Assembly: GCF_000192745.1 (NCBI RefSeq)
Contig: NC_015259.1
Coordinates: 697,001-761,000 of the forward strand
Origin: Polymorphum gilvum SL003B-26A1
GTDB taxonomy: Bacteria; Pseudomonadota; Alphaproteobacteria; Rhizobiales; Stappiaceae
DNA: 64,000 bases
Reading direction: 5' to 3'
Made by a program: the position numbers and the translations under genes. Shown here piece by piece: positions 5,270-50,732 of the stretch. Under the pieces are notes generated by a model. The model had not been told where the DNA came from. It ran no database searches and saw only the letters and a list, made by a program, of their open reading frames with translations. Positions within the stretch are counted from its first letter, which is position 1; each line of letters starts with the position of its first letter.

Positions 5270-5298
5270 GTGAGCCTCGGGAGCCGGGGAAATGGGCG

Positions 5299-5334
5299 AT
5301 GTGCCAAACCGTTTTTGGCACATTTTTGGCACAC
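5299..5334. promoter_or_regulatory. Repeated TTTGGCACA arm-type sites upstream of int
   Basis: Two tandem copies of TTTTTGGCACA (from 5312 and 5323) and one inverted copy (TGTGCCAAA from 5300) lie between the integrase start and the tRNA fragment. Tandem short repeats of this kind next to an att core are typical integrase arm-binding sites; they could also autoregulate int. Confidence 0.5.
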
Positions 5335-5450
5335 TGAAAACCAAAAACTCTCAACAAGAGCCTGAAGGGCTCATCGGAAAAATGATGTGATTTCAATGCT
5401 ATGATTGTTGAGAAGTGTTGACAGAGTGTGCCGAGAATGGCTTTTCGCTT

Positions 5451-33984: not shown

Positions 33985-34545
33985 ATGGCAGGACGCAGAC
34001 CGAAAGCCCCCGAGGATCGCCGCGATGTCGTCGCCCGCATCCGCCTGACCCGCGCCGAGCAGCGCGCCATCCAGCAGCGCGCCGTCGAGGCCGGCGTCAC
34101 CTTCGCCGACTATGTCCGTGAGACCGCGATGGGTCGGAAACCCCGGGCCAAGCCGGCGAAAGCAAAGGCCATCGAGGACGTGTTCTACGAACTGGGGCGG
34201 ATCGCCAACAACCTCGCCCAGCTCGAAGCCGCCACCGGCGATGAGACCTACCGGCCATGGGCGGTCTATGTCGGCAAGGAGATGGTCGAGCGCCTGACCG
34301 ACCGCGCCGACCTGGCGCCCGTCCTCATGAGCCACGTCGAGGCCGTCAACGGCATCGGCCACCTGATCAACAGCCTCGCCCGCCGCGCCAACTCCGGCAA
34401 GGACATCGACGACGAGGAACGCGACGAGGCGCTCACCATCCTGAAGGACGTGCTCGCCCCGATCCACAAGGCTGTCGCCAAGGGGCCGAAGGGACGGGAG
34501 CCGGAGGGCAAGCCCGATGGCCCGGAGGGCAGCGATGCGCTTTAA
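33985..34545 (+). CDS. mobC: MobC-like relaxosome accessory protein
   Basis: This 186-residue basic protein has a ribbon-helix-helix-like N-terminus (RIRLTRAEQRAIQQRAVEAGVTFADYVRETAMG) and a helical centre with ELGRIANNLAQLEA, the hallmark of MobC-type proteins that open oriT DNA and recruit relaxase. It overlaps the relaxase start by 11 bases. GGGGAGG precedes the ATG. Confidence 0.85.
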   Translation: MAGRRPKAPEDRRDVVARIRLTRAEQRAIQQRAVEAGVTFADYVRETAMGRKPRAKPAKAKAIEDVFYELGRIANNLAQLEAATGDETYRPWAVYVGKEMVERLTDRADLAPVLMSHVEAVNGIGHLINSLARRANSGKDIDDEERDEALTILKDVLAPIHKAVAKGPKGREPEGKPDGPEGSDAL

Positions 34546-36232
34546 GGTGCCCGCCCGTCAGCCGGAGAGCTTCCGAGGCTCGGCACTCTATCTCGCCGGC
34601 CAGATCAAGGGGCTCTCCCCCGACCGGGTGGAGTTCGTCGAGACCCGCAACCTTTTGACCGACGACCCGCGCGCAGCGGCGGCCGTCATGGATGCGACGG
34701 CCGCGAAATCCGTCCGCTGTAAGCAGCCGGCCTATCACTTCATGATCACCTTCGACCCGAAGGACGCGGCGGCGGGGAAGGTGACGCCGGAGGTAAAGCG
34801 CAAGGTCGCCCAGCAGGTCATCGAGCGGATGGGCCTGACGGAGCATCAGCTCCTGGTCTACAGCCACCGCGACACGGAACACCCCCACCTGCATTTTCTG
34901 GTCAACCGGGTGCATCCCGAGAAGCACGTCGCCTATGACCGGCATCAGGACGGGCGGCGGCTGACCGGCATCGTGCAGGAGCTGGCGCAGGAGCATGGCC
35001 TCAACATCCTGCGCAACCGCGAGTACGAGCGCCAACTCGGCCGGGACGTGGTGGAGGACTTCGGCCCCACCGTCTCTGACGCCGAATACTGGCAGGCGCG
35101 GCGGGAGCAGCGCGAGGCGCAGATCCCCTTCGCCAAGGACGACATCGCCGACCTGCGCCGACGCCTGAAGGACGATTTCATCCGCGCCCGCGACTGGGAT
35201 GACCTGGCCCAGCGGCTCGCCGACAAGGGCGTCACCCTGGAGCGCAAGGGGCAGGGGCTGATCCTCACCGACGGGGAGCGCTTCGCCAAGCTGTCCGACA
35301 TGGGCAAGGGTGTCCGCTTCCATACCCTGGAGGAACGCTTCGCGGAGAGCTTCGACGACCACATGGCGCGGCGGGCCGCGCGTGTTGCACAGCGGGATCG
35401 GGGCAAAGAGGAGCCGACGCCCGATACGTCGGGCATGGCCCCGCCCGAGCGGCGCACCGTGGAGGGCATGTTCGCCGAGGAGCCGGACCGCGACCCGGCC
35501 GAGGCGGCCGTGCGGCGCTTCGACGAAGCCGACATGGACTTCCGCTACTGGAGCCAGATCGAGGCGTCCTACCGGACAGCCGCGGGCAAGGTGCGCTATG
35601 CGGAGCGTCAGCAGTCCTTCGCCGAGAAGCAGGTGCCCCGTGACGAGGCATGGCTTCAGAAGCGCGACCGCAGCCTCGACGACATTCTGGGCAAGGTCTA
35701 CCGGGATGCCGTCAAGGCCCGCGCGGTCTGGGATGACCTGGAGGAGAAGTTCGGCATCCGCGACGCCGAACGCATGATCGAGAAGGACCCCTTCATCCTG
35801 GGGGCGGTGCGCGGGATGCGGCTGGGCGACACGCGGACGGCCGACCGCAAGGAGGCCAGGCGCTACTACCGCTACATCATCGAGCGCCGCCGCCGGTGGC
35901 GGGATGCCCGGAACCGGCTGGAGCATACGCGCTCTGAGATCGAGCAGGCCAGGCGGCGGGTGAAGCAGGCCATCCGCGACTACGAGATGCTACAGCAGAT
36001 CGCGGGCAGCCCGCAGGTGCTGAAGGAGACGATGCTGGAGAAGATCAAGGCGCGGGCGCGGGCACTGTCGCGCGTGACCGAGAAGGCCATCCAACGCAGC
36101 CGCCTGTCGGACGAGCGGCGCGAACAGCTCCATCGCGCTTGGCGCGTGGCCAAGGAACGCAAACTTGAGCGGGAGCGGAAGCGCGAACGGGGCCGGGCGT
36201 TCGGGCTCGACCTGACGCTGTTCGATAAATGA
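34535..36232 (+). CDS. MobA/VirD2-type (MOBP) relaxase
   Basis: The chosen start, MRFKVPARQ, gives 565 residues; an upstream in-frame ATG at 34517 adds six. The metal-binding motif III is HRDTEHPHLHFLVNRV near residues 110-125, the usual HxDxxHPHxH form. The N-terminal relaxase domain would nick oriT through a Tyr. The C-terminal 300 residues are highly charged and helical and may bind the coupling protein. It overlaps mobC, so the two are translated together. Confidence 0.87.
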   Translation: MRFKVPARQPESFRGSALYLAGQIKGLSPDRVEFVETRNLLTDDPRAAAAVMDATAAKSVRCKQPAYHFMITFDPKDAAAGKVTPEVKRKVAQQVIERMGLTEHQLLVYSHRDTEHPHLHFLVNRVHPEKHVAYDRHQDGRRLTGIVQELAQEHGLNILRNREYERQLGRDVVEDFGPTVSDAEYWQARREQREAQIPFAKDDIADLRRRLKDDFIRARDWDDLAQRLADKGVTLERKGQGLILTDGERFAKLSDMGKGVRFHTLEERFAESFDDHMARRAARVAQRDRGKEEPTPDTSGMAPPERRTVEGMFAEEPDRDPAEAAVRRFDEADMDFRYWSQIEASYRTAAGKVRYAERQQSFAEKQVPRDEAWLQKRDRSLDDILGKVYRDAVKARAVWDDLEEKFGIRDAERMIEKDPFILGAVRGMRLGDTRTADRKEARRYYRYIIERRRRWRDARNRLEHTRSEIEQARRRVKQAIRDYEMLQQIAGSPQVLKETMLEKIKARARALSRVTEKAIQRSRLSDERREQLHRAWRVAKERKLERERKRERGRAFGLDLTLFDK

Positions 36233-36315: not shown

Positions 36316-36933
36316 ATGCCCAGCAAGAAGAAGGTCACCGCCGCGAACTCGGCATTTCAGATCAAGGTTCAGTTAATCGGCATTGAGCCGGAAATCTGGC
36401 GTCGCATCATTGTTCCGGGCACGCTGACACTGCGGGAACTTCACGCCGTCCTGCAAGGGGCCATGGGCTGGCAGGACTACCACCTGCACATGTTCGAGAT
36501 CGAGGGAAAGCGCTTCGAGGTGCCGGAGAACGACAAGTTCGGGCCGGAGGACGGTTATGCGGACGAGCGGAAGCAAACGCTGGCGAAAATCCTCACAAAG
36601 GGAATGGAGTTCCTTTACGTCTACGATTTCGGCGACAACTGGAAGCACCTGATCACAGTCGAGGATGTCGCGGCGCCCGCCTCCGCGCGCCATTTCATGC
36701 CGCGCTGCATCGCCGGCACGCGCGCATGTCCGCCGGAGGATTGTGGTGGGGACTATCGCTATCCGGAGTTTCTGGACGCATTGGCCGATCCCGGCCACCC
36801 CGAACACCGGGACATGGTGGATTGGGCGGGCGGCTTCGAGCCGGAGGTGTTCAGCTTGTCGCAGGCAAACGCGCTGATTGGTGCGGTCTGTGCGCTTTAC
36901 GCGGAACGAGGCTGGGGCTTCCGTCAGCCATGA
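36316..36933 (+). CDS. Plasmid pRiA4b ORF-3-like protein
   Basis: This 205-residue protein shows the family layout: FQIKVQLIGIEPEIWRRIIVPG at the start, LHAVLQGAMGWQDYHLHMFE, FLYVYDFGDNWKHLITVE, and a Cys cluster CIAGTRACPPEDCGG. The family is widespread on mobile elements and has no proven function. It lies 83 bases downstream of the relaxase with its own AAAGGGGAG site. Confidence 0.88.
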   Translation: MPSKKKVTAANSAFQIKVQLIGIEPEIWRRIIVPGTLTLRELHAVLQGAMGWQDYHLHMFEIEGKRFEVPENDKFGPEDGYADERKQTLAKILTKGMEFLYVYDFGDNWKHLITVEDVAAPASARHFMPRCIAGTRACPPEDCGGDYRYPEFLDALADPGHPEHRDMVDWAGGFEPEVFSLSQANALIGAVCALYAERGWGFRQP

Positions 36934-36974
36934 CCACCTTGAACGTGGGAAGTTTGGTGGCCTGCATTAGCTGC

Positions 36975-37307
36975 TTACCGGCATTCTTTCGGACTGATGA
37001 GCAACAGTGCTTGGTCCCGGCTTTCCGGTTCGATAGCCACGCGCAGGTCTTGTGTGTCGCACCATCCCAGAAACTCTGACAGCGCGCGGGTTCCCAGGAA
37101 TGCACTGTCAAGCGGAAGCCCAAGAATACGGCCGCCGCGCGACATGCAGGATTGGATCCCCTGCAGCACGTCCTCGGCTTTCATTCGCGCCAGGCTTTCG
37201 CCGGCGCGTATTTCGCGCCCAATCATTGCTTGATTGAAGTCCCTGGCTGATTGGAGGATGTCTTCTGTTGCGTCCGCTTCTCGCCACTTGTCTGCCAAAC
37301 ACTGCAT
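36975..37307 (-). CDS. Hypothetical protein
   Basis: This 110-residue protein starts at MQCLADKWREAD behind GGGAG. It is soluble and helical in its first half (ILQSARDFNQAMIGREIRAGESLARMKAEDVLQGIQSCM). A longer frame upstream overlaps the divergent gene and is rejected. Family not recognised. Confidence 0.5.
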   Translation of the reverse strand: MQCLADKWREADATEDILQSARDFNQAMIGREIRAGESLARMKAEDVLQGIQSCMSRGGRILGLPLDSAFLGTRALSEFLGWCDTQDLRVAIEPESRDQALLLISPKECR

Positions 37308-37385
37308 GGCACAATAACTCCCAAAATTCTTGCAGTGCCTTATGTGACCGAGCCCGAATATCGCGAATGACAGGGAGGACGAAAA

Positions 37386-37772
37386 ATGAACATGCTTGCG
37401 CTCGTTTACCAAGGACTTCCCCATATTGACGATATCGCGCCTATATCTGGTGATGACGGCGCTTGCCTCGACGAGATACGAGCCGTGCTGGACCGCTACG
37501 GGAAGACCGACCGCTTCGGTATCTGCCTTCTGCACCAGCATTTCGCGATCGGGGATGGCGAGATTCTGGTGGAAACCTGCGATGAGGAAGAGCGGACGCT
37601 GACGCTGCGGCCAGTGAGCAAAAACAGCCTGCCCGCCCAATCTGTCGTGGAGACCGTATGGCGGTTCGACAGGCCGGGAGCATCGGCAGCGTGCTGGAAG
37701 GCGTGCGTCGCCGATGGGCCAGCCGGTTCCCATCGGAAAAAGCACGTTCAGGGCCGGACACTGACACCTTGA
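37386..37772 (+). CDS. Hypothetical protein
   Basis: This 128-residue protein (MNMLALVYQGLPHIDDIAPISGDD) has a good Shine-Dalgarno (GGGAGGAC). Acidic and His-containing segments (RFGICLLHQHFAIGDGEILVETCDEEERTLTLRPV) suggest a compact fold. It is divergent from the preceding gene with 78 bases between starts. Similar proteins occur on mobile elements; function unknown. Confidence 0.6.
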   Translation: MNMLALVYQGLPHIDDIAPISGDDGACLDEIRAVLDRYGKTDRFGICLLHQHFAIGDGEILVETCDEEERTLTLRPVSKNSLPAQSVVETVWRFDRPGASAACWKACVADGPAGSHRKKHVQGRTLTP

Positions 37773-37794
37773 TGGTGTCATTACGGAACGAAGG

Positions 37795-38133
37795 CTATTC
37801 GTAGGCGAACATCTGCTGAAGAAGGTCGGCGACCTCGCGACAACGCGGCTCCGGGAGGCGTCCGAGATGCTTGGCGAGGCGCGCCTTGTCCACTGTCCGT
37901 ATCTGGTCGAGAACCACTTGTCCTTTCTTGCGCTGGAAGGTGACATCGACGCGGCTCGGGTAGTCCCGCCGCACGGAAGTCATGGGAGCGATGATGACCG
38001 TCCGGATGTGCCGGTTCATCTCGTCCGGCGAGATGACCAGGCAAGGCCGGGTCTTCTTGATCTCTGACCCCAGTGTGGGGTCGAGATTCACCAGATACAC
38101 GTCATAACGCCGGACATCCGCTACCACTCCCAT
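37795..38133 (-). CDS. mazF: MazF-type endoribonuclease toxin
   Basis: This protein of about 112 residues has the MazF/PemK fold signature RRYDVYLVNLDPTLGSEIKKTRPCLVISPDE, the central VIIAPMTS strand and VLDQIRTVDKARL. MazF toxins cleave mRNA. ATG 38133 or GTG 38127 both fit; GTG has better spacing to AAGGAGG. It overlaps mazE, so antitoxin and toxin are coupled. The pair probably stabilises the element. Confidence 0.9.
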   Translation of the reverse strand: MGVVADVRRYDVYLVNLDPTLGSEIKKTRPCLVISPDEMNRHIRTVIIAPMTSVRRDYPSRVDVTFQRKKGQVVLDQIRTVDKARLAKHLGRLPEPRCREVADLLQQMFAYE

Positions 38134-38378
38134 TCCTCCTTGTCCCAATCATGATCCATCGTGTCGGGGACAAGCAGGGCATCGTCCTTGGCGGCAGCCA
38201 TCTTCGCGAACGCGCCATCCCAGCCATCGCGAGTACGGCGGGCGGGCGCCAGCACCACAATGCCGTGCTCGACGCGCATCTCGATTTGCTCGCCGAAGCC
38301 GCATTCCTTGATGACCGAGCTTGGAATCCGCACGCCCTTGGAATTGCCGATCGGAACCAGATTCACTTTCATTGCCAT
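38121..38378 (-). CDS. mazE: MazE-type antitoxin (AbrB-like)
   Basis: This 85-residue protein has an N-terminal SpoVT/AbrB swapped-hairpin DNA-binding domain (VNLVPIGNSKGVRIPSSVIKECGFGEQIEMRVEHGIVVL) and an acidic C-terminal tail that would block MazF. It precedes mazF with a 13-base overlap. It is likely autoregulated through the AT-rich upstream region. Confidence 0.9.
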   Translation of the reverse strand: MAMKVNLVPIGNSKGVRIPSSVIKECGFGEQIEMRVEHGIVVLAPARRTRDGWDGAFAKMAAAKDDALLVPDTMDHDWDKEEWEW

Positions 38379-38451
38379 ATCCTCCTATGTAGTAACAATG
38401 TAATTACTTTGGGCGAGCATGTCAATGGTTCGACAGTCCCGGTCCAGGAGG

Positions 38452-38811
38452 CTACAGCCCGTCGCCTGTCCAGAAGGGGATGCCGTTCCGGCGGTCATGC
38501 CAGCCGATGGTGAACCCAATGTGGGCTTCCCGGTCGCTTGTGACGACGGTCGCCGTGCAGCGCCTATAGTCGCGGCTGGCGCCGCTTCGGACTTCCGATG
38601 CGGCGTATAGACCGAGGACGGTCCGACCTCCCTGCGCTTCGAGCGCGGTGCGAACCTGGTCCAAAGAGCGTGCTTCGTCGCAGCGGGGCAACTCCATCGG
38701 ACTTCCATGCGCGTCGCGGTGCAGGAACACAGCGAGCGGGATGGCCCAGACTGTGGCGATGAGCAGGCCGAGGAAGGCATATCCGCCGATATCTTCATTG
38801 AACGATTTCAT
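38452..38811 (-). CDS. Single-span membrane protein downstream of VirD4 copy 2
   Basis: This 119-residue protein has a transmembrane segment near residues 10-30 (YAFLGLLIATVWAIPLAVFL) and a soluble C-terminal part with two Cys. It starts 15 bases after the coupling-protein stop, behind AAAGGATG, and so belongs to the same operon. It could be a small transfer accessory protein; family not recognised. Confidence 0.6.
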   Translation of the reverse strand: MKSFNEDIGGYAFLGLLIATVWAIPLAVFLHRDAHGSPMELPRCDEARSLDQVRTALEAQGGRTVLGLYAASEVRSGASRDYRRCTATVVTSDREAHIGFTIGWHDRRNGIPFWTGDGL

Positions 38812-38826
38812 CCTTTCATCCTTTCG

Positions 38827-40422
38827 TTATTTCATCATGTCGGCGGAGATGAGCGCGCCGGGATCGTCCTCGGCCGCCTCCATCCGCCAGGGCATCCAGC
38901 GCCCCTTGAAGGCGCGCTCCTCGAAGTAGCGGAGCTTCTGTGCCAGGATCGGGCGGCATCCCTGCACGAACAGAAGTTGGCAGCTCTCGGGCAGCAGCAT
39001 GATTTCGGACGGTGCCAGCAACTGCCGCCCGATCTCGCTGTGCTGTTCGCTGTAGTTCGATGCCAGCCCGAGCCAGGGGAACTGCCCGCTCTTGCCGCCG
39101 CTGGAGACCCTAACGGTGCGTTGGCCGAGCATCGCTGAGAGCAACAGCGCCGTCTCATCGTCCTGGACATTGAAGGCTTGCCGCACCGCGCAGTTGGCGA
39201 TCATCGAGCGCCACTTGCGATAGGTTTTCTGGAGCTGGTCGAGGTCCTGGACGAACAGCCACAGGTGCGCGCCGTAGCCAGCCAGGTAGCCGATGCCGTC
39301 TTCGATCGGCCGCATCGGCCCGAGAGCGGGCAGCTCATCGAGCAGGAACAGCACCGGATGCCGGGGTATCCGCTTGTTGCGTGTCATCGCGGCCGTGGTG
39401 AGCCCGACCATCAGGCGCAGGAAGGGCTGGTAGACGGAGACGTACTCCGGCGGGATGATCAGGAAAACGGACATGACGCCGTTCTTCAGGTCTTCGAGCC
39501 GGAAGGTGGAGCGGCTGGTGATCGCCCCGAGCTGGGGGCTGTCGAACACCTCCGTCCGCGTCTGCGCCGTCGATATGACGGCCGAGCGCTCCTTGTCCTC
39601 CTTCTGCGAGAACCCCTGCGCGATCCGTTGCACAATGGGGTGCTTGGCATCGGCCATGCCGACGAGCACGCCGTCAAATCCCTCGCGCGACCGCATGAGC
39701 AGAACCCGCAGCTCGCGCAGGTTCCGGCGGCCGGGCGGCAGATCATGGGCGATATGGAGCAGCAGGCCGGTGACGAGCACCCGCGCCTCGCGCTCCCAGT
39801 GGTTCGGTTCGTGATTTTCCGGCGCGACAATCATCTCGGCGATCAGCCGTGCGTCATCCACATCGTTGACGGTGCCCGCGCGGATGAACTCGACCGGGTT
39901 GTAGCAGGCGCTTTCGATGTCCGGATCGAAAGGCGCGAAGGCATGCACCGGCCCGAGCGTGCCGCGGTGCCGCGCCGTGATGCGATAGTTCTCTCCCTTG
40001 ATGTCCGTCACCACCACCGAACCCGGATGGTCGAGCAGGTTGGGGATGACGACACCGACGCCCTTGCCGGAACGGGTCGGCGCAAAGGTGAGCAGGTGGC
40101 CCGGCCGGTCGAAGCGGACGAAGCGTCCGCCCTTCTTGCCGAGGATGACGCCGCGTGACCGCAGGCCTGCGCGACCGATGTCGGCCGTCGTCGCAAACGC
40201 GGCCGTGCCGTGCGCGTCGCTCGGTCGGCGGAAGAGGCTATAGGCGAAGAAGAGGATTCCGGCGAAGGCGATGCTTCCCGCCATTCCCAGCACGAGCAGC
40301 CTGTCGGTGCCGACGGTGAGGTTGTCGATGAGAGCCCACATCAGCGCCGCGATCAGCAGGCAGATGGGTAGCTCGAATAGGGCGAATCTGGCGAGACGCC
40401 ATAGCAGACGAAAATGTCCCAT
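38827..40422 (-). CDS. VirD4/TraG-type coupling protein, membrane form (second copy)
   Basis: This 531-residue type IV coupling protein has two N-terminal transmembrane segments (residues 12-33 and 41-64). Walker A APTRSGKGVG lies at 114-123, the VTDIKGENYRITARHRG motif follows, and Walker B VLFLLDELPALGPM lies further on. The ATG at 40422 follows CCAAGGAGTGTGCT. Upstream are a long hairpin and a lux-box-like palindrome, so expression is probably quorum-controlled. This is the canonical partner for the relaxase 2.6 kb away. Confidence 0.9.
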   Translation of the reverse strand: MGHFRLLWRLARFALFELPICLLIAALMWALIDNLTVGTDRLLVLGMAGSIAFAGILFFAYSLFRRPSDAHGTAAFATTADIGRAGLRSRGVILGKKGGRFVRFDRPGHLLTFAPTRSGKGVGVVIPNLLDHPGSVVVTDIKGENYRITARHRGTLGPVHAFAPFDPDIESACYNPVEFIRAGTVNDVDDARLIAEMIVAPENHEPNHWEREARVLVTGLLLHIAHDLPPGRRNLRELRVLLMRSREGFDGVLVGMADAKHPIVQRIAQGFSQKEDKERSAVISTAQTRTEVFDSPQLGAITSRSTFRLEDLKNGVMSVFLIIPPEYVSVYQPFLRLMVGLTTAAMTRNKRIPRHPVLFLLDELPALGPMRPIEDGIGYLAGYGAHLWLFVQDLDQLQKTYRKWRSMIANCAVRQAFNVQDDETALLLSAMLGQRTVRVSSGGKSGQFPWLGLASNYSEQHSEIGRQLLAPSEIMLLPESCQLLFVQGCRPILAQKLRYFEERAFKGRWMPWRMEAAEDDPGALISADMMK

Positions 40423-40423
40423 A

Positions 40424-40590
40424 GCACACTCCTTGGTGTTTACTGTTCCCAAGGGCTTATGGGCCGGGTGCCGATTTGTTTGGCTGACGTGTGGTAATTC
40501 GTCTCGATTAAGACAATAATGGAAGTGTTGCCGACCCTTCCAGCACACTCCGAGAAGTGACTGTTCCCAGGGGGTCGGCAACGCCTTCCT
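40424..40590 (-). promoter_or_regulatory. Long inverted repeat and duplicated segment in the VirD4 copy 2 leader
   Basis: GTTGCCGACCC (40527-40537) is the exact inverse of 40572-40582, with an outer GGAAG/CTTCC pair. A split motif, GCACACTCC then ACTGTTCCCA, occurs at 40424/40442 and again at 40543/40560. The copy nearest the gene contains the ribosome site. This could sequester or mimic the ribosome site. Confidence 0.45.
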
Positions 40591-40623
40591 GTACTTCATG
40601 TCGGAATCGCAAGCGGCTTACAT

Positions 40624-40645
40624 AACCTGTGAATCTTCACAGGTT
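40624..40645. promoter_or_regulatory. lux-box-like palindrome upstream of VirD4 copy 2
   Basis: AACCTGTGA-N4-TCACAGGTT is a perfect palindrome of 22 bases, about 200 bases upstream of the coupling-protein start. It matches the box before the LuxI gene at 43523-43544 in sequence and spacing, so the LuxR protein encoded nearby is its likely ligand. Confidence 0.75.
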
Positions 40646-40668
40646 GTAGTCTGGCGTTATTTCTCTAT

Positions 40669-40700
40669 ATGACGAAATCGTCCTTGCGTTATTTCGTCAT
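40669..40700 (-). terminator. Hairpin at the end of the parA unit
   Basis: ATGACGAAAT and ATTTCGTCAT form a perfect 10-bp inverted repeat with a 12-base loop at the stop of the ribbon-helix-helix gene. It lacks a T run, so it may be an attenuating hairpin or operator. Confidence 0.45.
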
Positions 40701-40924
40701 CCGCGCCGCTGCTTCACCAGATCGAAGCCTTCGCGCAGCAGGTCCACCATCGAGATGCCGTGCACAGCCGCGTAGGCTTTGTACTCGCGGTGAAACTCCG
40801 GACTGACCTTGAAGTTGAGCGGCTTCTGGGCGCCGCTTTCCGCGCGGTCGAGATTGTGCACGACCTGCATGGGCGCGGGCGGCAGACCTTTGCCATTGCG
40901 ACGCGGTGGGAGAATCTTCGTCAT
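40697..40924 (-). CDS. Ribbon-helix-helix protein downstream of parA (ParG/CopG-like)
   Basis: This 75-residue protein has a disordered basic N-terminus and a C-terminal ribbon-helix-helix (KPLNFKVSPEFHREYKAYAAVHGISMVDLLREGFDLV). Its ATG lies one base after the parA stop, as in parA-parG-type partition modules. Because parA is broken by IS630, this protein may now be expressed abnormally or alone. Confidence 0.75.
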   Translation of the reverse strand: MTKILPPRRNGKGLPPAPMQVVHNLDRAESGAQKPLNFKVSPEFHREYKAYAAVHGISMVDLLREGFDLVKQRRG

Positions 40925-41464
40925 CCTATGCCGCCTCCCTGCCGGTGCGCGTCTCGATGATGTCGGCCAGTTCCTGGGCGATGGCCGCCGCGCGTTCGTT
41001 GAGAGAGGGAAAGCGCGTTTCCGTCGGTGCGCGGCCTTCGTCGCTGGCGCGGCGGAAGCCGGTCTTCTCCGGCAGCACGTTCGTCAGATGCCGGTATCCG
41101 GCCTGCCGCACATAGGCGCTGGCCTCCGCAAGCTCGGCTTCGCTGTCGCCGACGCGGCAGAAGGCGACGGCGATCCTGTCGGCGGGCACGCCTTTCTTGG
41201 TCAGCTCATGGGCGAGCAGCACGGTCGGTTCGAGATCGTCCAACGCGAGTCCGGTCGGCAGCACGACGAGCGTGCTGGCCTCGGCAATCTGGTGCGTGCC
41301 CATGGTCGCGTGCGGCGGGCCGTCGAGGATCATCAGGTCGTATCCGGCCGCCGCCTTCACGGCCTGGCCGACGGTGCCGAAGCGTTCGACCGCGACCACC
41401 GGCTCGACGCTGCGCTGAAGGCGCCGCGCCTGCCAGCTGAAGCTAGTGCCCTGCTGGATGTCTA

Positions 41465-42518
41465 GAGCGTTTTGTGTGGTTTCGGAATCAAGAGGGATTC
41501 CCAAATTTGCGGGATCGTGATTCAAGATGAGGGCTGGTGAAGGAGGCCAGCCCTCATGGCCAAATCCTTGTCCGTTGATCTGCGCCGCCGTGTTGTCGAA
41601 GCCGTAGAAGCCGGTGCGTCGCGCCGAGCTGCGGCGGCTCGGTTCGGGGTTGGCGTGTCGTCGGCGATCCGGTGGGTCGAGCGCGCGCGGACGCGCGGGC
41701 ACGTCGAAGCCGACAAGCGGGGCGGCAATCATCGCTCTCACCGGATCGACGCGCACCGCGGCCTGATCCTGGAATGGATCGATCAGACGCCGGATCTGAC
41801 CTTGGCGGAGATCGCCGAGCGGCTGGATGCGGCCGTGGCCTATCGTCCGACGCCGAGCATCGTCTGCCGGTTCTTCCAGCGTCACGGCGTGACGCGGAAA
41901 AAAAGACTGCGCACGCCGCCGAGCAAGCGCGTGCCGACGTAGCCCGGCGCCGCCTCGCCTGGTTCGAGAGGCAGCCCGATCTCGACCCGGAGCGACTGGT
42001 GTTCATCGACGAGTGCGGGACCTCGACCAAGATGGCCCGGATGTATGGCCGTGCGGCCCGCGGCGAGCGGTGCCGGGCGCCGGTTCCCCACGGTCACTGG
42101 AAGACGACCACCTTCGTCGGAGCCCTCCGCCTGTCCGGCATGACCGCGCCGATGACCCTGGACGGTGCCATGAGCGGCGCCGCCTTCCTCGCCTATGTCG
42201 ACCAGGTCCTGGTCCCGACCCTGCGGCCCGGCGACATCGTGGTGATGGACAACCTGCCGGCCCACAAGCCGCCGGCGATCCGCGCGGCGATCGAGCGAGC
42301 AGGCGCGGAACTCTGCTTCCTGCCGCCCTACAGTCCGGACTTCAACCCGATCGAAATGGCCTTCTCGAAGGTCAAGGCTCTCCTGAAGAAGACGGCCGCG
42401 CGGACCGTCACCAGCCTCTGGGACGCCATCCGTGACGCCATCGACGCCGTCACCACGGACGATTGCCGAGGATTCTTCACCGCTGCCGGGTATGAACCAG
42501 AATGATGGGAATCTGCTC
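41465..42518 (+). mobile_element. IS630-family insertion sequence, copy 2 (1054 bases)
   Basis: It is flanked by TA duplications (41463-41464, 42519-42520). It has the same length, coding sequences and orientation as copy 1, so the pair are direct repeats about 10.5 kb apart. It interrupts parA. Confidence 0.93.
41556..42505 (+). CDS. IS630-family transposase, copy 2
   Basis: It has the same two-frame structure as copy 1, with the same run of seven A at the switch. OrfA 41556-41942 and the downstream -1 frame to 42505 encode products identical to copy 1. Confidence 0.88.
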
Positions 42519-42810
42519 TAGGTCCGCGATCTTCACGTTCCAGCCTGCGAGCGCGTACTCACGGGCGATCAGCCGCGCCAGCGTGCTTTTGCCGACGCCG
42601 CCCTTCTGGGAAATGGTTCCGATGAAAAGGGTCATGTCCATTCTTTCTTGTTCTTGTTTTGTCGAAAGGACGAATTCAGTAAATGATGACATACACATTT
42701 CGTTATTTCACGAATTTTCGTTCAACTTCATAAGTATTCACCTATTCACATGAGAGGACCGTCAGGACATTCGATCGACCGTCATCGGCTTTCTGGACCA
42801 TATCCGCGAC

Positions 42811-43503
42811 GTGGAGGACGTTGCGTCTCTTGAAGCCGCATTCTCGAAATCGCTCTGGGATCTGGGCTTCCGAGAGTGGGCCTATCAGGTCATTCGCACG
42901 GACGCGCTACCGGACGAGAAGCCGCTCATCCTGACCACCTTCCCCGACGCCTGGTACAGCCACTACATCGACAACGGCTACCACCGTGTCGATCCGGTCA
43001 TCCTGAACGGACCGTCGCAGGTCGCACCCTTCACCTGGAGCGCCATGTCCTTTGGTATGGAGCCGTCACCCGAACAGCGCAGGCTCTTCGCTGAAGCGAC
43101 CGAGTTCGGGTTGGGGGAGGGGGTCGGCATTCCGATCCATGGCGCCCGCGGTTCGCTCGCGATGGCATCCATGGTGTCCGACCATGGCGCGAGGGGCCTT
43201 GCCCGCCTGATGTCCACTGTCGGTAAGGACGTTCACCTGATGTCGCTCGCCTTCCACAATCACGCCCGCGAGCTTCTCGCCCTTGGGCGTTCCGGCCGGA
43301 CCACCGTCAGCCTGACGCGGCGGGAGCGCGAATGCCTTCTGTGGATAGCTGCCGGGAAGTCCGCCTGGGAAATCTCCCGCATCCTCGGCATCTCCGCCCG
43401 GACGGTCTATTTCCACCTCGACAACGTCCGCGCCAAGATGGGCGTGACCAATGTCTACCATGCGGTCGTCAAGGCCATCATGGAGGGCATGATTTCCCCG
43501 TGA
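42811..43503 (+). CDS. LuxR/TraR-family quorum-sensing regulator
   Basis: From GTG 42811 this has 230 residues: an autoinducer-binding domain (WAYQVIRTD, FPDAWYSHYIDNGYHRVDPVILNG, FTWSA) and a C-terminal GerE helix-turn-helix (LTRRERECLLWIAAGKSAWEISRILGISARTVYFHLDNVRAKMG). The open frame extends upstream to 42754 and the extra residues (TVIGFLDHIRD) continue the N-terminal helix of the family. A non-standard ATT start at 42769 behind AGGACCGTCAGG is therefore possible. It lies just upstream of the LuxI gene and would bind the two lux-like boxes. Confidence 0.9.
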   Translation: MEDVASLEAAFSKSLWDLGFREWAYQVIRTDALPDEKPLILTTFPDAWYSHYIDNGYHRVDPVILNGPSQVAPFTWSAMSFGMEPSPEQRRLFAEATEFGLGEGVGIPIHGARGSLAMASMVSDHGARGLARLMSTVGKDVHLMSLAFHNHARELLALGRSGRTTVSLTRRERECLLWIAAGKSAWEISRILGISARTVYFHLDNVRAKMGVTNVYHAVVKAIMEGMISP

Positions 43504-43522
43504 AACCGCTTTACTCGCCAGT

Positions 43523-43544
43523 AACCTGTGACGGTTCACAGGAT
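43523..43544 (+). promoter_or_regulatory. lux-box-like palindrome upstream of the luxI gene
   Basis: AACCTGTGA-N4-TCACAGGAT lies 56-77 bases before the synthase start and shares 17 of 18 defined bases with the box at 40624. It suggests autoinduction of the synthase. Confidence 0.75.
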
Positions 43545-43572
43545 GGCAGCGCACGCGATCTCTGGCTGAATG

Positions 43573-43591
43573 CTCCCAAACAATTTGGGAG
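43573..43591 (+). promoter_or_regulatory. Hairpin overlapping the luxI ribosome site
   Basis: CTCCCAAA-CAA-TTTGGGAG is a perfect 8-bp stem whose 3' arm contains most of the GGGAGGG Shine-Dalgarno (43587-43593). Folding would hide it and limit synthase translation. Confidence 0.55.
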
Positions 43592-43599
43592 GGAAGCCA

Positions 43600-44220
43600 T
43601 TGCTTCACATCATATCGAAAGAGAACGCACACCTGCATTGGGATGCGCTCGCGTCCATGCACCAGCTCCGCCGGAGCGTCTTCAGGGAACGGCTTGGCTG
43701 GGATGTCACTGTTGTCAACGGGCTGGAGCTCGACCAGTTCGACCTGCCGGACGCGCATTACCTTGTTCACACTGCGCTGGACGGCCGCGTGAACGCCTGC
43801 ACGCGGCTCCTGCCGACGACAGGTCCGTACCTGCTGGCCGATGTGTTCCCGGAGCTGGTGGACGGGGAGATGCCGTGCGCGCACGACATCTGGGAAAGCA
43901 CCCGCTTCTGTGCCGATCAGGCGACGGCGCCGGCGAACATCGCGGCCGTCCTCATGGCCGGGATGCTGGAATTTGGCCAGTTCACCGGGCTCCGCGCCTA
44001 TGTGTCGGTGTCCGACATCCGCATGGAGCCGATCATGCGCCGGGCCGGCTGGAACCCCATCCGCCTTGGCAAGACCATGGAGACCGGCACCGACACGGCT
44101 GCGGCTGAGTGGCTGGAGGTGTCGTCCGAGTATCTGGCGCGTGTACGCAAGCGTGCTGGCGCGACGGGCTCCCTCATCGCCAACCTTGCCGAGCTTCGTC
44201 AGGAAAGGGTTGCGGCATGA
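43600..44220 (+). CDS. LuxI/TraI-family acyl-homoserine-lactone synthase
   Basis: With the TTG start at 43600 behind GGGAGGGAAGCCA the product has 206 residues and begins MLHIISKEN like other family members; ATG 43570 would add ten. Conserved LuxI residues are present: LRRSVFRERLGWDV (Arg, Phe, Trp), ELDQFDLPDAHYLV (Glu, Asp, Asp), ACTRLLPT (Arg) and DIWESTRFC (Glu, Arg). It would make an acyl-homoserine lactone from S-adenosylmethionine and acyl-ACP; the acyl chain cannot be told. It is coupled to the next gene by ATGA. Confidence 0.92.
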   Translation: MLHIISKENAHLHWDALASMHQLRRSVFRERLGWDVTVVNGLELDQFDLPDAHYLVHTALDGRVNACTRLLPTTGPYLLADVFPELVDGEMPCAHDIWESTRFCADQATAPANIAAVLMAGMLEFGQFTGLRAYVSVSDIRMEPIMRRAGWNPIRLGKTMETGTDTAAAEWLEVSSEYLARVRKRAGATGSLIANLAELRQERVAA

Positions 44221-44402
44221 CCCACGATACCGAATGGCCGGCATCCTCGCCGCATAGCGGTGAACATCAGTCCCGCATCGAAGCCAATCGCCTCGCGTGG
44301 TGCATCCGGTATCTTGCGGACGAAGCCCGTCGCAGCGGATTCGACGAGACGGCGGCAGCGTTGGAGGCTGTAAAACTGCCTCGCAAAAACGACCGTTCAT
44401 GA
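44217..44402 (+). CDS. Small protein translationally coupled to luxI
   Basis: This 61-residue acidic protein has an ATG overlapping the synthase stop (ATGA). It contains RIEANRLAWCIRYLADEARRSGFDETAAALEAV, a single helical region, and no membrane segment. The position suggests a modulator of the LuxR/LuxI circuit such as an antiactivator, but there is no family evidence. Confidence 0.6.
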   Translation: MTHDTEWPASSPHSGEHQSRIEANRLAWCIRYLADEARRSGFDETAAALEAVKLPRKNDRS

Positions 44403-44419
44403 GGGCGCGGTCGATTTGA

Positions 44420-44455
44420 GAAAGGCGGAACCAGTTTCCGCCTTTCGTCTTTTTC
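44420..44455 (+). terminator. Terminator of the luxR-luxI unit
   Basis: GAAAGGCGGAA/TTCCGCCTTTC, a perfect 11-bp stem, is followed by GTCTTTTT. Confidence 0.88.
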
Positions 44456-44507
44456 TCAAAACTCATCCCGAAACCTGATAAACTAAACACGTTTCAATTA
44501 ACGGAAT

Positions 44508-45083
44508 TTGAGAAGAGTGAATATTGGTTATGCCCGAGTATCTACCGCGGAACAGAATCTGACCCTCCAAACCGACGCCCTTGAGGCGGCCGGGTGCGAA
44601 CGGGTCTTCGTCGAGACCGCTTCCGGCGCGCAGCGCGACCGTCCGGAGCTTGAGCGTGCGCTCGACTTTATGAGGCCCGGCGACACACTTGTCGTCTGGA
44701 AGCTCGACCGCCTGGCCCGGTCCATGCGGCAGCTCATCGACACGGTGGAGCTTCTCCACTCGAAGGGCATGGGCTTCCTTTCCATGACCGAGGCCATCGA
44801 CACGACGACCGCCGGCGGCATGCTGGTGTTCCACATCTTCGGCGCGCTGGCACAGTTCGAGCGCGCAATCATCCGCGAGCGCACAAGAGCTGGACTGGAT
44901 GCCGCCCGTGCCCGTGGCCGCAAGGGCGGCCGTCGACCGAAACTATCCCAATCGGACATCCGCGACGCCAGAGCCCTCTTGCGCGACCCTGAGGTAAGCG
45001 TCGCGGAAGTGGCCAAACGCCTTAATGTGTCGCCCGCTACACTATACCGGCACCTACCGGGCGGGCGAGCGGGTGCAGTCTGA
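44508..45083 (+). CDS. Serine recombinase (resolvase/invertase family)
   Basis: This 191-residue protein starts at TTG 44508. Its catalytic domain has the Ser nucleophile at residue 12 (YARVSTAEQ), the GDTLVVWKLDRLARS motif and the long E helix (GALAQFERAIIRERTRAGL). A C-terminal Hin-like helix-turn-helix follows (VSVAEVAKRLNVSPATLYRHL). Such enzymes resolve multimers or invert DNA. It ends 12 bases before IS481 copy 2. No paired res sites were recognised. Confidence 0.88.
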   Translation: MRRVNIGYARVSTAEQNLTLQTDALEAAGCERVFVETASGAQRDRPELERALDFMRPGDTLVVWKLDRLARSMRQLIDTVELLHSKGMGFLSMTEAIDTTTAGGMLVFHIFGALAQFERAIIRERTRAGLDAARARGRKGGRRPKLSQSDIRDARALLRDPEVSVAEVAKRLNVSPATLYRHLPGGRAGAV

Positions 45084-45095
45084 ACGTCACTTATC

Positions 45096-46199
45096 TGTCC
45101 ACTTAACCTTCTTGGCTAACGAATGACATGACGGTTTCGACAGGCCGTCTGCCTTGGTTGCGGTAGCCCAGATGCGGGCGCTCTGTGTTGTAGTGGACGA
45201 GCCAGGCGTCGAGATCGGCCTGCAGGGCTTCGACGGTCTCGTAGAAAGTCTCGCGCATCTTCACCCGGAAGAACTCGTCCAGCACCGTGCCGTTGAAGCG
45301 CTCGACGAAGCCGTTGGTCTTTGGCGTCTTCACCTTCGTGCGGCGGTGCTCGATGCCATTGAGGTCGAGATAGAGCTCGTAAGGATGCCGGTCCGTCCCG
45401 CAGAACTCGCGGCCATTGTCGGTCAGCACGGCTTTCACCGGCAAATCGAGATGGCGGTAGAAGGGCAGCACGTCGTTGTGCAGTACTGCGACCGCCGCCT
45501 CGGGCTGCTTGGAGACGTGCAGGAAGCCGAAGGCGTAGCTGCCGAAGGTATCGACCACGGCGTGCAGATAGACCTTGCCGACGCCCTTGAGACTGCCCAC
45601 GAAGAACGTGTCGGCCGACAGGAGCTCGCCCGGCGCGCTTGATTCCACGTGCCTTTCCCGGAAGCAGGGGTTCAGCTTCTCCAGGAAGGCGGCCTGTTCG
45701 GGCGTGATCTCGATGGCCGTCTCGGCGTTCTGTGCCTCCAGCGCCAGCCAGCGCTCGACCTTGGTGCCGAGGCCGCTTTCGTTGAGGATCTTCTGGATGG
45801 TGATCGACGACACCCGGACACCTTCCAGCGCCAGCATCGCCTCGTGCCGATTACAGCCATAGGCGGGATGCGCCAGCGCAAGCTCCTTGATCCTGTCCAC
45901 CACCTCGGGCGCCGTCGTCTGCGGATGGCTCTTGTGGATCGGCGGCAGGTCCTTCAGCCCGTCGAACCCTTGCGTCTGAAACCGGCGCTTCCACTCGTAG
46001 AAGCTGGTCCGGTCCATGCCTCGCTGACGGCAGGCCTCGGCGACGTTGCCGAGTTCCCTCGCCAGCTCAAGCACGCTCAAACGCTGCTGCGCCACCTTGC
46101 TGGCGGCATCACGAGGCGAGGCCTGCCTTGCTGTTGATGATTGTCCCATGGGATCTTCCTCCTTTCCAACGATAGCACGGAAAGAAGGTTAAGTGCACA
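45096..46199 (-). mobile_element. IS481-family insertion sequence, copy 2 (1104 bases, inverted)
   Basis: Its ends are as in copy 1. It is flanked by a 7-bp direct duplication ACTTATC (45089-45095 and 46200-46206), so it is an intact simple insertion. It lies opposite in orientation to copy 1, 26 kb apart. Confidence 0.92.
45103..46149 (-). CDS. IS481-family transposase, copy 2
   Basis: This 348-residue protein is identical in sequence to the product at 17656-18702, with the same helix-turn-helix and DDE residues. It appears intact. Confidence 0.93.
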   Translation of the reverse strand: MGQSSTARQASPRDAASKVAQQRLSVLELARELGNVAEACRQRGMDRTSFYEWKRRFQTQGFDGLKDLPPIHKSHPQTTAPEVVDRIKELALAHPAYGCNRHEAMLALEGVRVSSITIQKILNESGLGTKVERWLALEAQNAETAIEITPEQAAFLEKLNPCFRERHVESSAPGELLSADTFFVGSLKGVGKVYLHAVVDTFGSYAFGFLHVSKQPEAAVAVLHNDVLPFYRHLDLPVKAVLTDNGREFCGTDRHPYELYLDLNGIEHRRTKVKTPKTNGFVERFNGTVLDEFFRVKMRETFYETVEALQADLDAWLVHYNTERPHLGYRNQGRRPVETVMSFVSQEG

Positions 46200-47332
46200 A
46201 CTTATCCGGCCGAAATACGGTTGTTGGCGACTTCACATAGCGTCCGGAACCGGTCCGCTACGTCCTGTGTCACAATCTGCTTTGGGTCCGTCCCCATCTT
46301 TGCAAGCAATAGCCGCATCGGTCTGGTCTTGTGAAAGTCCAAGCCGGCTGTCTTGAATGCATCTTCGAAGCGCTTCGCGATACGCGGAATTTTGTCGTTC
46401 ACCTTGAGGGAGACGCCTTTTAGCTCTTTTGCGTAACTTTCATGTACCAGGGTTTCGTACACCTTGGGATCAATCAGGTCTTCCATATCGGCTTCCTTCG
46501 GCGGCGACGAGCCGAACGCATCTGCAATGAAGATCACGTTCTTGTCGCTGATGAGCTTCGACTTCACCAGCTCATCGCGTGTGGTCTTCGCGTCCTTCTC
46601 ATGATCGAGAAGGGCCAGCACGTTCAATTGCTCCGATGAAAGCAAGGCGACCATGTAGGGGATCTTCTGTGCACCGCCTGCTGGCGTGATCGTGATGTCC
46701 CCTCTCAGCCCACCTCCGCCGTTGGAATTCAGGTATTCGGAGATCGAGGACAATGCCCAGTAGTCGGTGACGCCTTCGACAACAAGATTGTTCGGCCCAA
46801 TGAATAGGCTCTGTGCCAGGTCGTAGCCAAGCGCTGCTTGCAGCGGAAACAGTGTCCGCGCGTCCCCAGAGGGGTCGTTCGACACGGTGGTTCCGACTTC
46901 TTCAGCAATGCTGACCGTGCGAACGGTATCTAGCCGGTGCGTCGGAACCATGAACGGGGAATGTGTCGTATACAGAATCTGGTTCTTAAAGTCGGCCTCG
47001 AAGTGGTTCAGCAAATCTCGTTGCGATTTTGCATGAAGATAAAGCCCCGGTTCATCGAGGAGAAGGATAGCGTCTTCGGCCGCACCGCCTTTCGTGTCGG
47101 CTGCAAAAGTCACATAGAACGAAAAGAACCACTGAAAGCCGCGACTCCGTTCGTTGAGGTTTACCTCGACATCGAAGGTAGCATTCGGGTCGGATACGAA
47201 GGTGTTGATATGCTCGGCATCCGTATCGAACCGGACCTTCAACGGGCGGTCTTTCCAAAGCCGGCGGATTTCTGACGTAATAACTGCGCTAGCCCGATTG
47301 GCGAGCTGGTTGCGCGTCTCATGTTCTTTCTG

Positions 47333-48555
47333 TGTATAAGTTATGACTTGATCTGACAGGCGGCATCGTGAAGCTGAGGTGAGAGCCGAGGCCGGGCGTG
47401 GAGCGGTTGGGGTGGCGTAACGCCCGGCCTCGGCGTTGGAGGACGTCGAGATGACCAAGGACCAGAAGATCATTCGTGCGAAGGTGGGGCTGCTGGAGCT
47501 CGCCCGGCAGCTCGGCAATGTAAGCCAGGCCTGCAAGATGATGGGCTATTCACGGGACAGCTTCTATCGCTTCAAGGAGCTCTACGAGACCGGGGGCGAG
47601 ATGGCGCTGCAGGAACTCAGCCGGCGCAAGCCGCTTCTGGCGAACCGGGTGGCGCCGGAGGTGGAAGCGCTGGTCATCGAGCTGGCGCTGGAGCTGCCGG
47701 CCTATGGACAGGTGCGGATCGCCAACGAGCTGCGCAAGCGCGGGCATTCGATCTCGCCGGCGGGCGTGCGCGGCGTCTGGCAGCGCAATGACCTGGAGAC
47801 GATGAAGAAGCGCCTGAAGGCGCTGGAGGCGAAAGTCGCCCAGGACGGGATCGTGCTGACCGAGAGCCAACTCGCCGCCCTCGAGAAGGCCAAGGCCGAC
47901 AAGGAAGCCCATGGCGAGTTCGAGAGCGAATGCCCGGGCTACTGCGGCGCGCAGGACACCTTTTACGTTGGCAACATGAAAGGCGTGGGACGGATCTATC
48001 AGCAGACTTTCGTCGACACCTACTCGAAGGTGGCCTTCGCCAAGCTCTACGACCGCAAGACGCCGATCACGGCGGCCGATCTCCTGAACGACCGCGTGGT
48101 GCCGTTCTTCGATGCCCAGGAGGTAAAGCTGTGCCGGGTGCTGACCGACCGCGGCACGGAGTTCTGCGGCAACCCCGAGCGCCACGAATACGAGCTCTAC
48201 CTCGCGGTCGAGGATATCGACCATTCCAGGACGAAGGCGAAGAGCCCGCAGACGAACGGCATCGTGGAGCGGTTCCACAAGACCGTGCTCGAGGAGTTCT
48301 ACCGCGTCGTGTTCCGAAAGAAGATCTATCGGTCCGTGGACGAGCTGCAAGCCGACCTCGACGACTGGATCAGGAGCTACAACGAGCAGCGTGAGCACCA
48401 GGGCAGATGGTGCTTCGGCAAGACGCCGATGCAGACATTTCTTGACGCCAAGCCGCTCGCAAAGGAGAAAATGATCGCAGCCTGATCGGCATCCGACAGG
48501 CGCGACCCGACCGACATCCAGATGTCAACTGTCCGACGAAGTCTAAACTTCTACA
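47333..48555 (+). mobile_element. IS481-type insertion sequence (1223 bases)
   Basis: The imperfect terminal repeats begin TGTA(T/G)AAGTT and continue GACTT..TC.GACAG. The element is flanked by a 7-bp duplication CTTTCTG (47326-47332 and 48556-48562). It is different from the other IS481 pair in this window and breaks the OLD-family gene. Confidence 0.9.
47451..48485 (+). CDS. IS481-type transposase
   Basis: This 344-residue protein has an N-terminal helix-turn-helix ([22 protein letters not shown]) and a DDE core: Asp in [11 protein letters not shown], Asp in [10 protein letters not shown], Glu in [24 protein letters not shown] precedes the ATG; TTG 47436 would add five residues. It is intact. 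Confidence 0.93.
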
Positions 48556-49454
48556 CTTTCTGGCCAAGGAGGCTTTGCAGTTCCTGAGGTCGAAGTCCCG
48601 CAACCTTGCACATCTTCTCGAAATTGACGTCGGCAGGCGTCTGCTGGTTCTGTTCTTTTCGCTGAAGAAATTCCGCGACATTTTGGTGGCCGTTCAGTTC
48701 GGGATATTCATCCAGATACATGAATACGGGCATCTGTGCGATCGCCCATTGGCGCGCGTTCTTTTCGCCTTCTATGTCCCCGGCGATTGTGTTGGCGAGG
48801 TCCTCCAGCTCGGCCACATGAGCGTCCTGTGTGTCGGTAAGTTCGGCATCGGCTGTAGCCATTGCCTGGCGCAACGCAGCAAGAGCAGGCTTCGCCTTGT
48901 TGGCCCATGCAAGCGCATCTGCCGACGGGGCAACGTCCGCGTCAAACTTGTCAGCGGCAGCCTCCAGAACGGTACGCACTTGTTCGTCCAGCTTGGCGGC
49001 TTTGGCTTTTACTGCTGGAACGATCTTGCGAATTTTCGACTTGATCGCGGCAGCATCAAATTCTTGGGCGGACACGCCCTCGAATCCCACTGTCCTCCTG
49101 TCGCCATAAGCGCGGCCAATTCGGACCGCTATGGCGGTTCCACCGCGCGCCCATAGCTTGCCCAGTTCAGTCCTGTCCGCGTTGTCCAACTCCCACAACG
49201 TGGCGACGACAGGGGTGGTGTCGGAACACTCCTCAAGTCTGCGATGCCGGGGAAAATCCTTCACCTTGCTGAGCGCCTTGAAGCCGTCGCTCGGGTTCAA
49301 GCTGTGAAGCGCGCGCAGTAGGTTGGATTTGCCGCTTTCATTCCGGCCGAGAAGTGAGGTGAGTTGGCCGACATGAATAAGCCCGCTGTCGGTGATCGAG
49401 CGGTAGTTCTGGATACGGAACTGCTTGAGCTTCATGATCGGCCCTTCCTTGCGT

Positions 49455-50677: not shown

Positions 50678-50732
50678 AACGGGGAGACGCCGGCTTGAAG
50701 GTCAAGAACAACATTATGAGGTGGGGCAAATC

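Follow-up and report, generated by a model that had tools for sequence, protein, structure and literature searches.

Predicted cell-density control of a coupling protein through two lux-type boxes in a probable mobilizable element of Polymorphum gilvum

The window analysed here is a stretch of 64,000 nucleotides of the chromosome of the oil-soil bacterium Polymorphum gilvum SL003B-26A1 (NC_015259.1, positions 697,001 to 761,000). Its subject is element A, most likely an integrated mobilizable element, with its own relaxase, NikA-like protein and coupling protein (VirD4) and no VirB4/TrbE-type pore ATPase of its own. Element A carries a luxR-luxI pair and two matching palindromic boxes, one before luxI and one before virD4. 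We consider it likely that this cassette autoinduces luxI and turns on virD4 through the matching boxes, and would thus gate transfer through a pore borne by a helper. The boxes, their rarity and conserved positions, the matched difference between LuxR and box, the coding of luxR from an ATH codon (ATT, ATC or ATA) and the covariation in the virD4 leader were established directly.

The two boxes and their positions

A preliminary description of the window had proposed matching boxes at 40624 and 43523, and a pattern scan of the window found both there (Table 1). The virD4 box, AACCTGTGAATCTTCACAGGTT, is a perfect palindrome with 9-bp arms around 4 bp; the luxI box is AACCTGTGACGGTTCACAGGAT. 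Allowing up to 3 mismatches, the scan of the 64-kb window returned just these two places (four rows, both strands), while 100 dinucleotide shuffles of the window gave a mean of 0.09 matches, a maximum of 2 and no shuffle with 4. The genome was then scanned as two contigs totalling 4,718,963 bases (C2, the chromosome; C1, a plasmid). With at most 1 mismatch, ACCTGTGA-N4-TCACAGGT occurs in only two places, the two element A boxes, so the random occurrence that would have spoken against the proposal was not seen. At 3 mismatches there are 4 further sites, compared with 1 for the reversed control pattern, and one of the 4 is the luxI box of a sister element, B. Among 87 genomes from the family, P. 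gilvum SL003B-26A1 alone has the exact 22-base pattern. No other target in the genome is of comparable box quality to luxI and virD4.

The half-sites of the boxes, ACCTGT and ACAGGT, are those reported for the 20-bp palindromic lux box of Vibrio fischeri, ACCTGTAGGATCGTACAGGT (PMC4444344), which bears out the earlier remark that the box is not a classical tra box. Judged by its letters, the lux-type palindrome ACCTGT-N8-ACAGGT is matched exactly by the virD4 box and with one change by the box beside luxI; the inner bases of the element A boxes, GA...TC, set them apart from the V. fischeri box. The gene assignments of the preliminary description also held. A gene between the boxes encodes a LuxR protein (Pfam Autoind_bind 6e-32, GerE 1e-19) and the gene adjoining the second box a LuxI protein (Autoind_synth 1e-36), both over the Pfam cut-offs, and the gene behind the first box is virD4 (T4SS-DNA_transf 7e-85).

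Relatives were found by scanning genome contigs with four LuxI sequences, which gave 7 loci; one of these, L050, proved by sequence comparison to be the Stappia contig G004:C5 and was counted once. In all, 10 elements with a close LuxI were available: A, B and C of Polymorphum, and those of Stappia albiluteola, Oceanibaculum pacificum, Chelatococcus caeni, Telmatospirillum sp. J64-1 (L051) and three Rhodospirillales metagenome bins. The layout of luxR, box and luxI, with a second box before virD4, is present in 10/10, some boxes being imperfect palindromes. Distances are also kept in all ten: 66.5-71.5 bp from box centre to luxI start, 212-217 bp from box centre to the virD4 ATG (212 bp in element A), and 49-53 bp from box centre to a hairpin, H1, in the virD4 leader. 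The long gap between box and virD4 is explained by this conserved structured leader lying in between. Two deeper LuxI relatives (58% and 48%) were set aside, as they were not linked to VirD4 in the stretches examined; a palindrome precedes luxI in the 58% relative.

On the P. gilvum chromosome the module is present three times: as A in the window, as B at C2:674-685 kb and as C at C2:527-535 kb. The luxR of element B is split by an IS21-type insertion (L042:2676-5198, equal to C2:679.7-682.2 kb) that is 96-100% identical to istA/istB of the window. Element B keeps its boxes and luxI despite the split luxR, and LuxR of element A could, from the likeness of the boxes, serve them in trans.

The boxes might be LuxR sites of which the one before virD4 serves repression, or looping with the luxI site over parA and luxR, so that virD4 is not activated by density. 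The virD4 box does lie behind a ribbon-helix-helix-like (RHH) gene and far from the virD4 ATG, and LuxR has been described as a repressor where a lux box was artificially placed between -35 and -10 (PMC4444344). We think this improbable, however, since the box holds its spacing to the hairpin in every element, including element C, which has no parA or RHH match. This spacing fits a class II activated promoter, where the box is described as lying ~45 nt before the start (PMC3907764), and would place the virD4 transcript start just before H1.

Joint variation of LuxR and the boxes

Sixteen boxes, from eight of the elements, differ from ACCTGTGA-N4-TCACAGGT by 0-4 changes. In elements C and L051 both boxes are instead of the type CTACCCG...GGGTAG (AGCTACCCGTTCGGGTAGGT and AACTACCCGAGTGGGTAGGG in C; ACCTACCCGTTCGGGTAGGT and AACTACCCGAGTGGGTAGGA in L051), that is, (A)CCTACCC...GGGTAGG-like when set against the V. 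fischeri box. Their LuxR proteins differ correspondingly: the DNA-binding domains of C and L051 share 86% identity, against 50-55% with that of A, and the recognition stretch reads ISEETVKYH(F/L) in place of ISARTVYFHL. Because LuxR and both boxes differ together in two elements, control of both luxI and virD4 by LuxR is supported. A finer trend among the remaining elements fits LuxR-box matching as far as the letters go. A and L052, whose LuxR has SRILGIS, possess symmetrical TGTGA/TCACA boxes, and those with AQILGIS (B, Stappia, L049 and L053) have GACAGG in the right box half, with L048 as an exception (TTCACAGG and TTTACAGG). In the P. gilvum genome the best C-type box is that of element C, just as element A alone has A-type boxes with 1 mismatch or fewer. 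C-type boxes occur at element C with 1 and 3 mismatches, and at one unrelated site with 3.

Operators near parA and RHH genes are common, and the RHH and ParA proteins of L051, too, differ from those of A (61% and 50% identical). The palindromes could on this basis be sites of another factor, the RHH protein or ParA, that stand beside luxR and luxI by chance. Yet element C and L054 carry both boxes without a ParA or RHH match, one box directly precedes luxI in 10/10 elements, and the half-sites match the lux box; we regard this explanation as very improbable.

How LuxR came to be matched to its boxes is suggested by unequal identities: VirD4 of L051 is 95% identical to that of A, its LuxR only 63%. 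This contrast is most simply read as the exchange of a block, and cassette exchange between elements appears likely though not proven. The exchanged block would span the virD4 box, RHH, parA, luxR and the luxI box. In the LuxR tree C and L051 form one clade with a support of 100/100, whereas this grouping was obtained in 0/200 bootstraps of the VirD4 tree and 14% in the LuxI tree (nine rows for LuxR and VirD4, ten for LuxI; element B was left out of the LuxR and VirD4 trees, its luxR being split and its VirD4 running off the sequence edge).

Several observations weigh against LuxR control of both genes or against its present working. In the approximately unbiased (AU) test, C and L051 as one clade were not rejected for VirD4 (p 0.083) or LuxI (p 0.456), and no starred branch of the VirD4 tree forces two changes. 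Since RHH and ParA of L051 also diverge from those of A, the joint change of LuxR and both boxes may be a single block event; even then, the two boxes and the LuxR encoded between them remain a matched set. The C-type pattern at 3 mismatches gives 3 sites against 4 for the reversed control and so is no rarer; the second C box therefore rests on position, not sequence. Further boxes across element A, for which a search had been advised, were absent at up to 5 mismatches from the relaxase and nikA promoters; the relaxase has no box. Finally, parA of element A is split and many transposases surround it, and the element may be decaying or damaged.

This last point bears on the possibility that the module is a relic, with genes and boxes intact but the element immobile and the circuit no longer governing transfer, a possibility that is compatible with the wiring proposed here. 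The split parA of A, the split luxR of B and the many transposases speak for it. On the other side, LuxR, LuxI, VirD4 and the relaxase of A are all open at full length, element C is without any parA match, and relatives in several genera keep the module. We judge a relic unlikely, but to be taken seriously. For LuxR control of luxI and virD4 as the preferred reading, the preliminary prediction of density control stood in part: the link from LuxR to luxI and virD4 is well supported by positions in all ten elements, rarity and joint difference, while control of transfer itself is reached by inference, with no VirB4/TrbE near A and a split parA.

The luxR start codon and the virD4 leader

The luxR gene of element A appears, from comparison of the ten elements, to begin at ATT 42769 rather than at the first listed GTG, 42811. 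The GTG column is not conserved, reading GTA, GTC or GTT in 4/10 elements. Over the 14 codons before it, pairwise differences by codon position were 196, 148 and 387, a coding-like distribution, and over the preceding 14 codons 379, 388 and 341 (an ungapped comparison, in which the outer stretch is perhaps partly misaligned). The codon at the boundary of this periodicity is ATT (4), ATC (4) or ATA (2), never ATG, and in 10/10 elements a Shine-Dalgarno-like stretch of 4-8 bases ends 5-11 bases before it, the weakest, of 4 bases, being that of element A. The luxR start column holds ATG in L060, whose LuxR and LuxI (39% and 58% identity) show no linkage to VirD4 in the stretch examined. In a comparison of 28 LuxR loci of more remote kinship, an in-frame ATG stands 12-21 codons upstream of the GTG column in 25 and a GTG does so in one; two have neither in the stretch scanned. 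Very probably, then, luxR of the family starts at AUU, AUC or AUA, and LuxR would therefore stay scarce. The infC and pcnB genes are precedents for non-AUG starts.

For luxI, TTG 43600 is more likely the start than ATG 43570; the codon aligned with TTG 43600 in homologues is ATG or TTG. An inverted repeat, CTCCCAAA/TTTGGGAG (43573-43591), just before luxI takes in its Shine-Dalgarno. Similar repeats with 7-bp arms and partly changed letters precede luxI in 4/6 other loci and, by eye, in element B.

The hairpin H1 of the virD4 leader was compared across 12 sequences. In its stem, 94.3% of 192 cells pair, and 6 of the 16 pairs show changes on both sides; pairing falls to 29-47% when the partner is slid. 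Of 500 shuffles, 0-2 attained the observed value for four of the five covariation measures, but 462 did so for the remaining one, 'further pair types', which weakens the case for covariation. The 12 sequences include two VirD4 relatives (61%) with no LuxR or LuxI match in the stretches examined. Since these share the leader, it is probably older than the quorum-sensing cassette.

The H1 loop resembles the ribosome-binding region of its own virD4 gene. Local alignment scores between the two were 26-36, with base shuffles giving a mean of ~12, and the own loop score was reached by at most 2 of 2000 shuffles. With the loops grouped by sequence type, a grouping set after viewing the sequences, own-group mean scores exceed those against other groups: 32 versus ≤24 for A, 32 versus ≤16 for L054 and 30 versus ≤12.3 for L068/L069. 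Two larger groups are less clear (32 versus 24, and 26.7 versus 23.2). For closely related elements some single cross-scores equal or exceed the own score, which weakens the reading as a self-copy. The loop and ribosome-binding copies stay matched while diverging in sequence. As to the role of H1, a ribosome decoy and paired sites for an element-specific regulator are both guesses.

An Rfam scan of 38000-45000 with E up to 1 gave no match. A conserved leader peptide within the virD4 leader was rejected, the frames differing between elements by eye. Six additional VirD4 relatives (40-53%) were compared. A strong hairpin of different sequence lies in about the same place in L070 (53%). Of the other five, L074 shows a 9-bp inverted repeat elsewhere in the 560 bases examined, and four lack, over 560 bases, any inverted repeat of 8 bp around a 20-70-base loop; for these five the stretches were not anchored on worked-out gene starts.

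From these features we infer binding, activation, the lactone, transfer and both translational effects, in the following circuit. LuxR would be made at a low level, probably through an AUU instead of an AUG start, and LuxI would make an acyl-homoserine lactone. At high density the LuxR-lactone complex would bind the luxI box and amplify the signal, and would bind the virD4 box and switch on the coupling protein from a transcript starting ~45 bp behind the box centre. H1, with its copy of the ribosome-binding region, would add a second, translational layer of control on virD4. VirD4 would then hand the relaxase-DNA complex to a pore that a conjugative element in the same cell provides, for example that of a trb-type cluster at C2:274-293 kb. 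Autoinduction as such follows from established LuxR/LuxI biology.

We propose more tentatively, and with somewhat less than even confidence, that the elements form a mobilizable family stacking three controls on the coupling protein. These would be a quorum-sensing cassette that can be exchanged and whose operators differ in specificity among elements sharing a cell, a LuxR initiated from AUU, AUC or AUA in every member found, and a virD4 hairpin displaying a matched ribosome-binding copy, which might act as a decoy in translation or give an element-specific regulator its second site.

Element A among mobilizable and quorum-sensing systems

Element A combines a relaxase and a coupling protein with no mating-pore genes, the combination by which integrative and mobilizable elements with their own coupling protein are recognized; the absence of a pore rests on a search for the VirB4/TrbE family and on Pfam searches with the proteins of the window. 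The genome has two VirB4/TrbE matches. The first is plasmid-borne; the second, at C2:283.8 kb and ~450 kb from element A, belongs to the trb-type cluster (L044), which has a DUF3363 relaxase and its own TraG and is a candidate helper. With its own relaxase and coupling protein but no VirB4/TrbE nearby, element A looks mobilizable, and quorum sensing would therefore control its access to a pore supplied by a helper. Of eight genomes with elements of this kind, 5 have a VirB4 family match and 3 have none, several being drafts in which absence is weak evidence; the matches in G464, G466 and G468 are per genome, not per element contig. The relaxase scored 139.8 bits against the MobP family NF041893, its best in the NCBIfam library, below the cut-off of 250. 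Beyond virD4, a PRiA4-type gene was found along with the genes of Table 1.

Table 1. Features of element A and of the region around its two boxes (window coordinates)
Feature	Position	Strand	Remarks
NikA-like relaxosome protein	33985..34545	+	Pfam PF21983
MobP/TraI-like relaxase	34517..36232	+	571 amino acids (aa); Pfam Relaxase over cut-off
PemK/MazF-type toxin gene	37795-38148	-	Between relaxase and virD4
orf119	38452..38811	-	Behind virD4; present in most relatives
virD4, type IV secretion system (T4SS) coupling protein	38827..40422	-	531 aa; Pfam, NCBIfam
Ribosome-binding region of virD4 with small hairpin H2 (CTTGG/CCAAG)	40423..40458	-	Second copy of the repeated motif
Hairpin H1 of virD4 leader	40520..40589	-	Loop copies virD4 ribosome-binding region
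Lux-type box before virD4	40624..40645	.	22-bp palindrome; position kept in 10/10 elements
Small gene	40697..40924	-	75 aa; RHH-like, by inspection only
parA	40926..42635	-	Split by IS630-type transposase insertion (about 41461-42521); ParA unsplit in relatives
luxR	42769..43503	+	244 aa from ATT 42769; first listed open reading frame (orf) start GTG 42811; Pfam
Lux-type box before luxI	43523..43544	.	Distance to luxI start kept in 10/10 elements
luxI, acyl-homoserine-lactone synthase	43600..44220	+	Likely TTG start; Pfam, NCBIfam
Small conserved orf	44217..44402	+	61 aa; overlaps luxI end; no NCBIfam family
Serine resolvase	44508..45083	+	Pfam; neighbour in relatives, identity varies

No attachment repeats of at least 17 bases were found for element A, only broken integrase pieces, and no transfer RNA gene was found in the window or in 7 loci scanned. 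A tyrosine integrase at 4142-5344 (minus strand), 97.8% identical to one on a Stappia albiluteola contig, probably marks where element B ends on the right, in which case B and A would form a tandem. A plasmid origin was rejected: among the PLSDB matches listed, there was no LuxR, LuxI or VirD4 at ≥60% identity. The DNA of 36900-45100 had near-matches in 36 PLSDB records; in the 20 listed, the similarity is confined to the stretches of the IS630 transposase or the resolvase. A scan of IMG/VR with the LuxI alignment gave 42 pattern matches and no relative among them.

Other genes of the window include a further VirD4-like protein of 671 aa (7556-9571, minus strand), which has a 60% relative at the far end of a Stappia contig (L079). 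An OLD-like ATPase/TOPRIM nuclease gene (46202-49435), apparently split by a transposase (47436-48485), forms defence cargo together with type I restriction-modification genes (50592-53440) and, after these, an AbiJ-like gene (54905-56026).

Conjugation under quorum sensing, lux boxes and mobilizable elements bearing a coupling protein have each been described before. With TraR/TraI of Agrobacterium Ti plasmids, to which the preliminary description had compared it, element A shares a LuxR/LuxI pair on a mobile element, positive feedback, and a box before both the synthase gene and the coupling-protein operon, there traCDG with traAFBH divergent (PMC3907764). In the Ti plasmids as described there, however, the relaxase, mating-pore and rep genes, too, are under the control of 18-bp tra boxes, whereas in element A two lux-type boxes address the coupling protein alone and no pore genes were found nearby. 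The comparison holds for the manner of working and not for membership. Against the NCBIfam TraR and TraI equivalogs (cut-offs 250 and 250) LuxR, taken from GTG 42811, scored 89.5 bits and LuxI 130.1, both far too low, and instead of 18-bp boxes before trb, tra and rep operons there are two lux-type boxes and no VirB4/TrbE near, no scan having been aimed at the tra-box pattern.

The ICESym-type elements of Mesorhizobium are likewise integrated elements with quorum-sensing genes, and mobilizable Mesorhizobium elements with virD4-like genes are reported; there, unlike in element A, quorum sensing sits on the conjugative elements, and the parts of the source covered state none for the virD4-bearing mobilizable ones (PMC8627217). 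Integrative mobilizable elements are described as recruiting a foreign mating pore with their relaxase and coupling protein (strategy I), as proposed here, but 'quorum' is absent from the review text as covered (PMC5704250). Setting the level of a regulator by a weak start codon is shared with sigR of Streptomyces, for which a GTC start and start-codon control by IF3 are documented (PMC5472188); here AUU, AUC or AUA would be used, in a quorum-sensing regulator and on the strength of alignment. Within the portions of the open-licence literature covered, no report was found of virD4 being linked to a quorum-sensing cassette in an element that lacks a pore (including PMC5704250, PMC4886583, PMC8627217, PMC13133039 and PMC3907764), of a non-AUG luxR start in quorum sensing, or of a self-copying virD4 leader.

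In its biosurfactant section, the genome paper lists the LasR-LasI pairs SL003B_0642-0643 and SL003B_0701-0702, citing the role of LasR in glycolipid synthesis (PMC3281065). By position these pairs are probably elements B and A, respectively, and the biosurfactant assignment therefore deserves a second look. Plasmid C1 may hold a further quorum-sensing set, with another LuxI-like gene (L041:12548-13117, 34% identity) ~2-3 kb from a TrbE gene.

If the proposed circuit is true, mobilizable elements that borrow a pore would time their own entry into it by cell density, acting through the coupling protein alone. Because LuxI is 79-84% alike across the three Polymorphum copies, signals may be shared while DNA targets would stay private. 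Three related elements on one chromosome, with two operator types, would offer a natural test of how sister circuits stay apart while perhaps sharing a signal.

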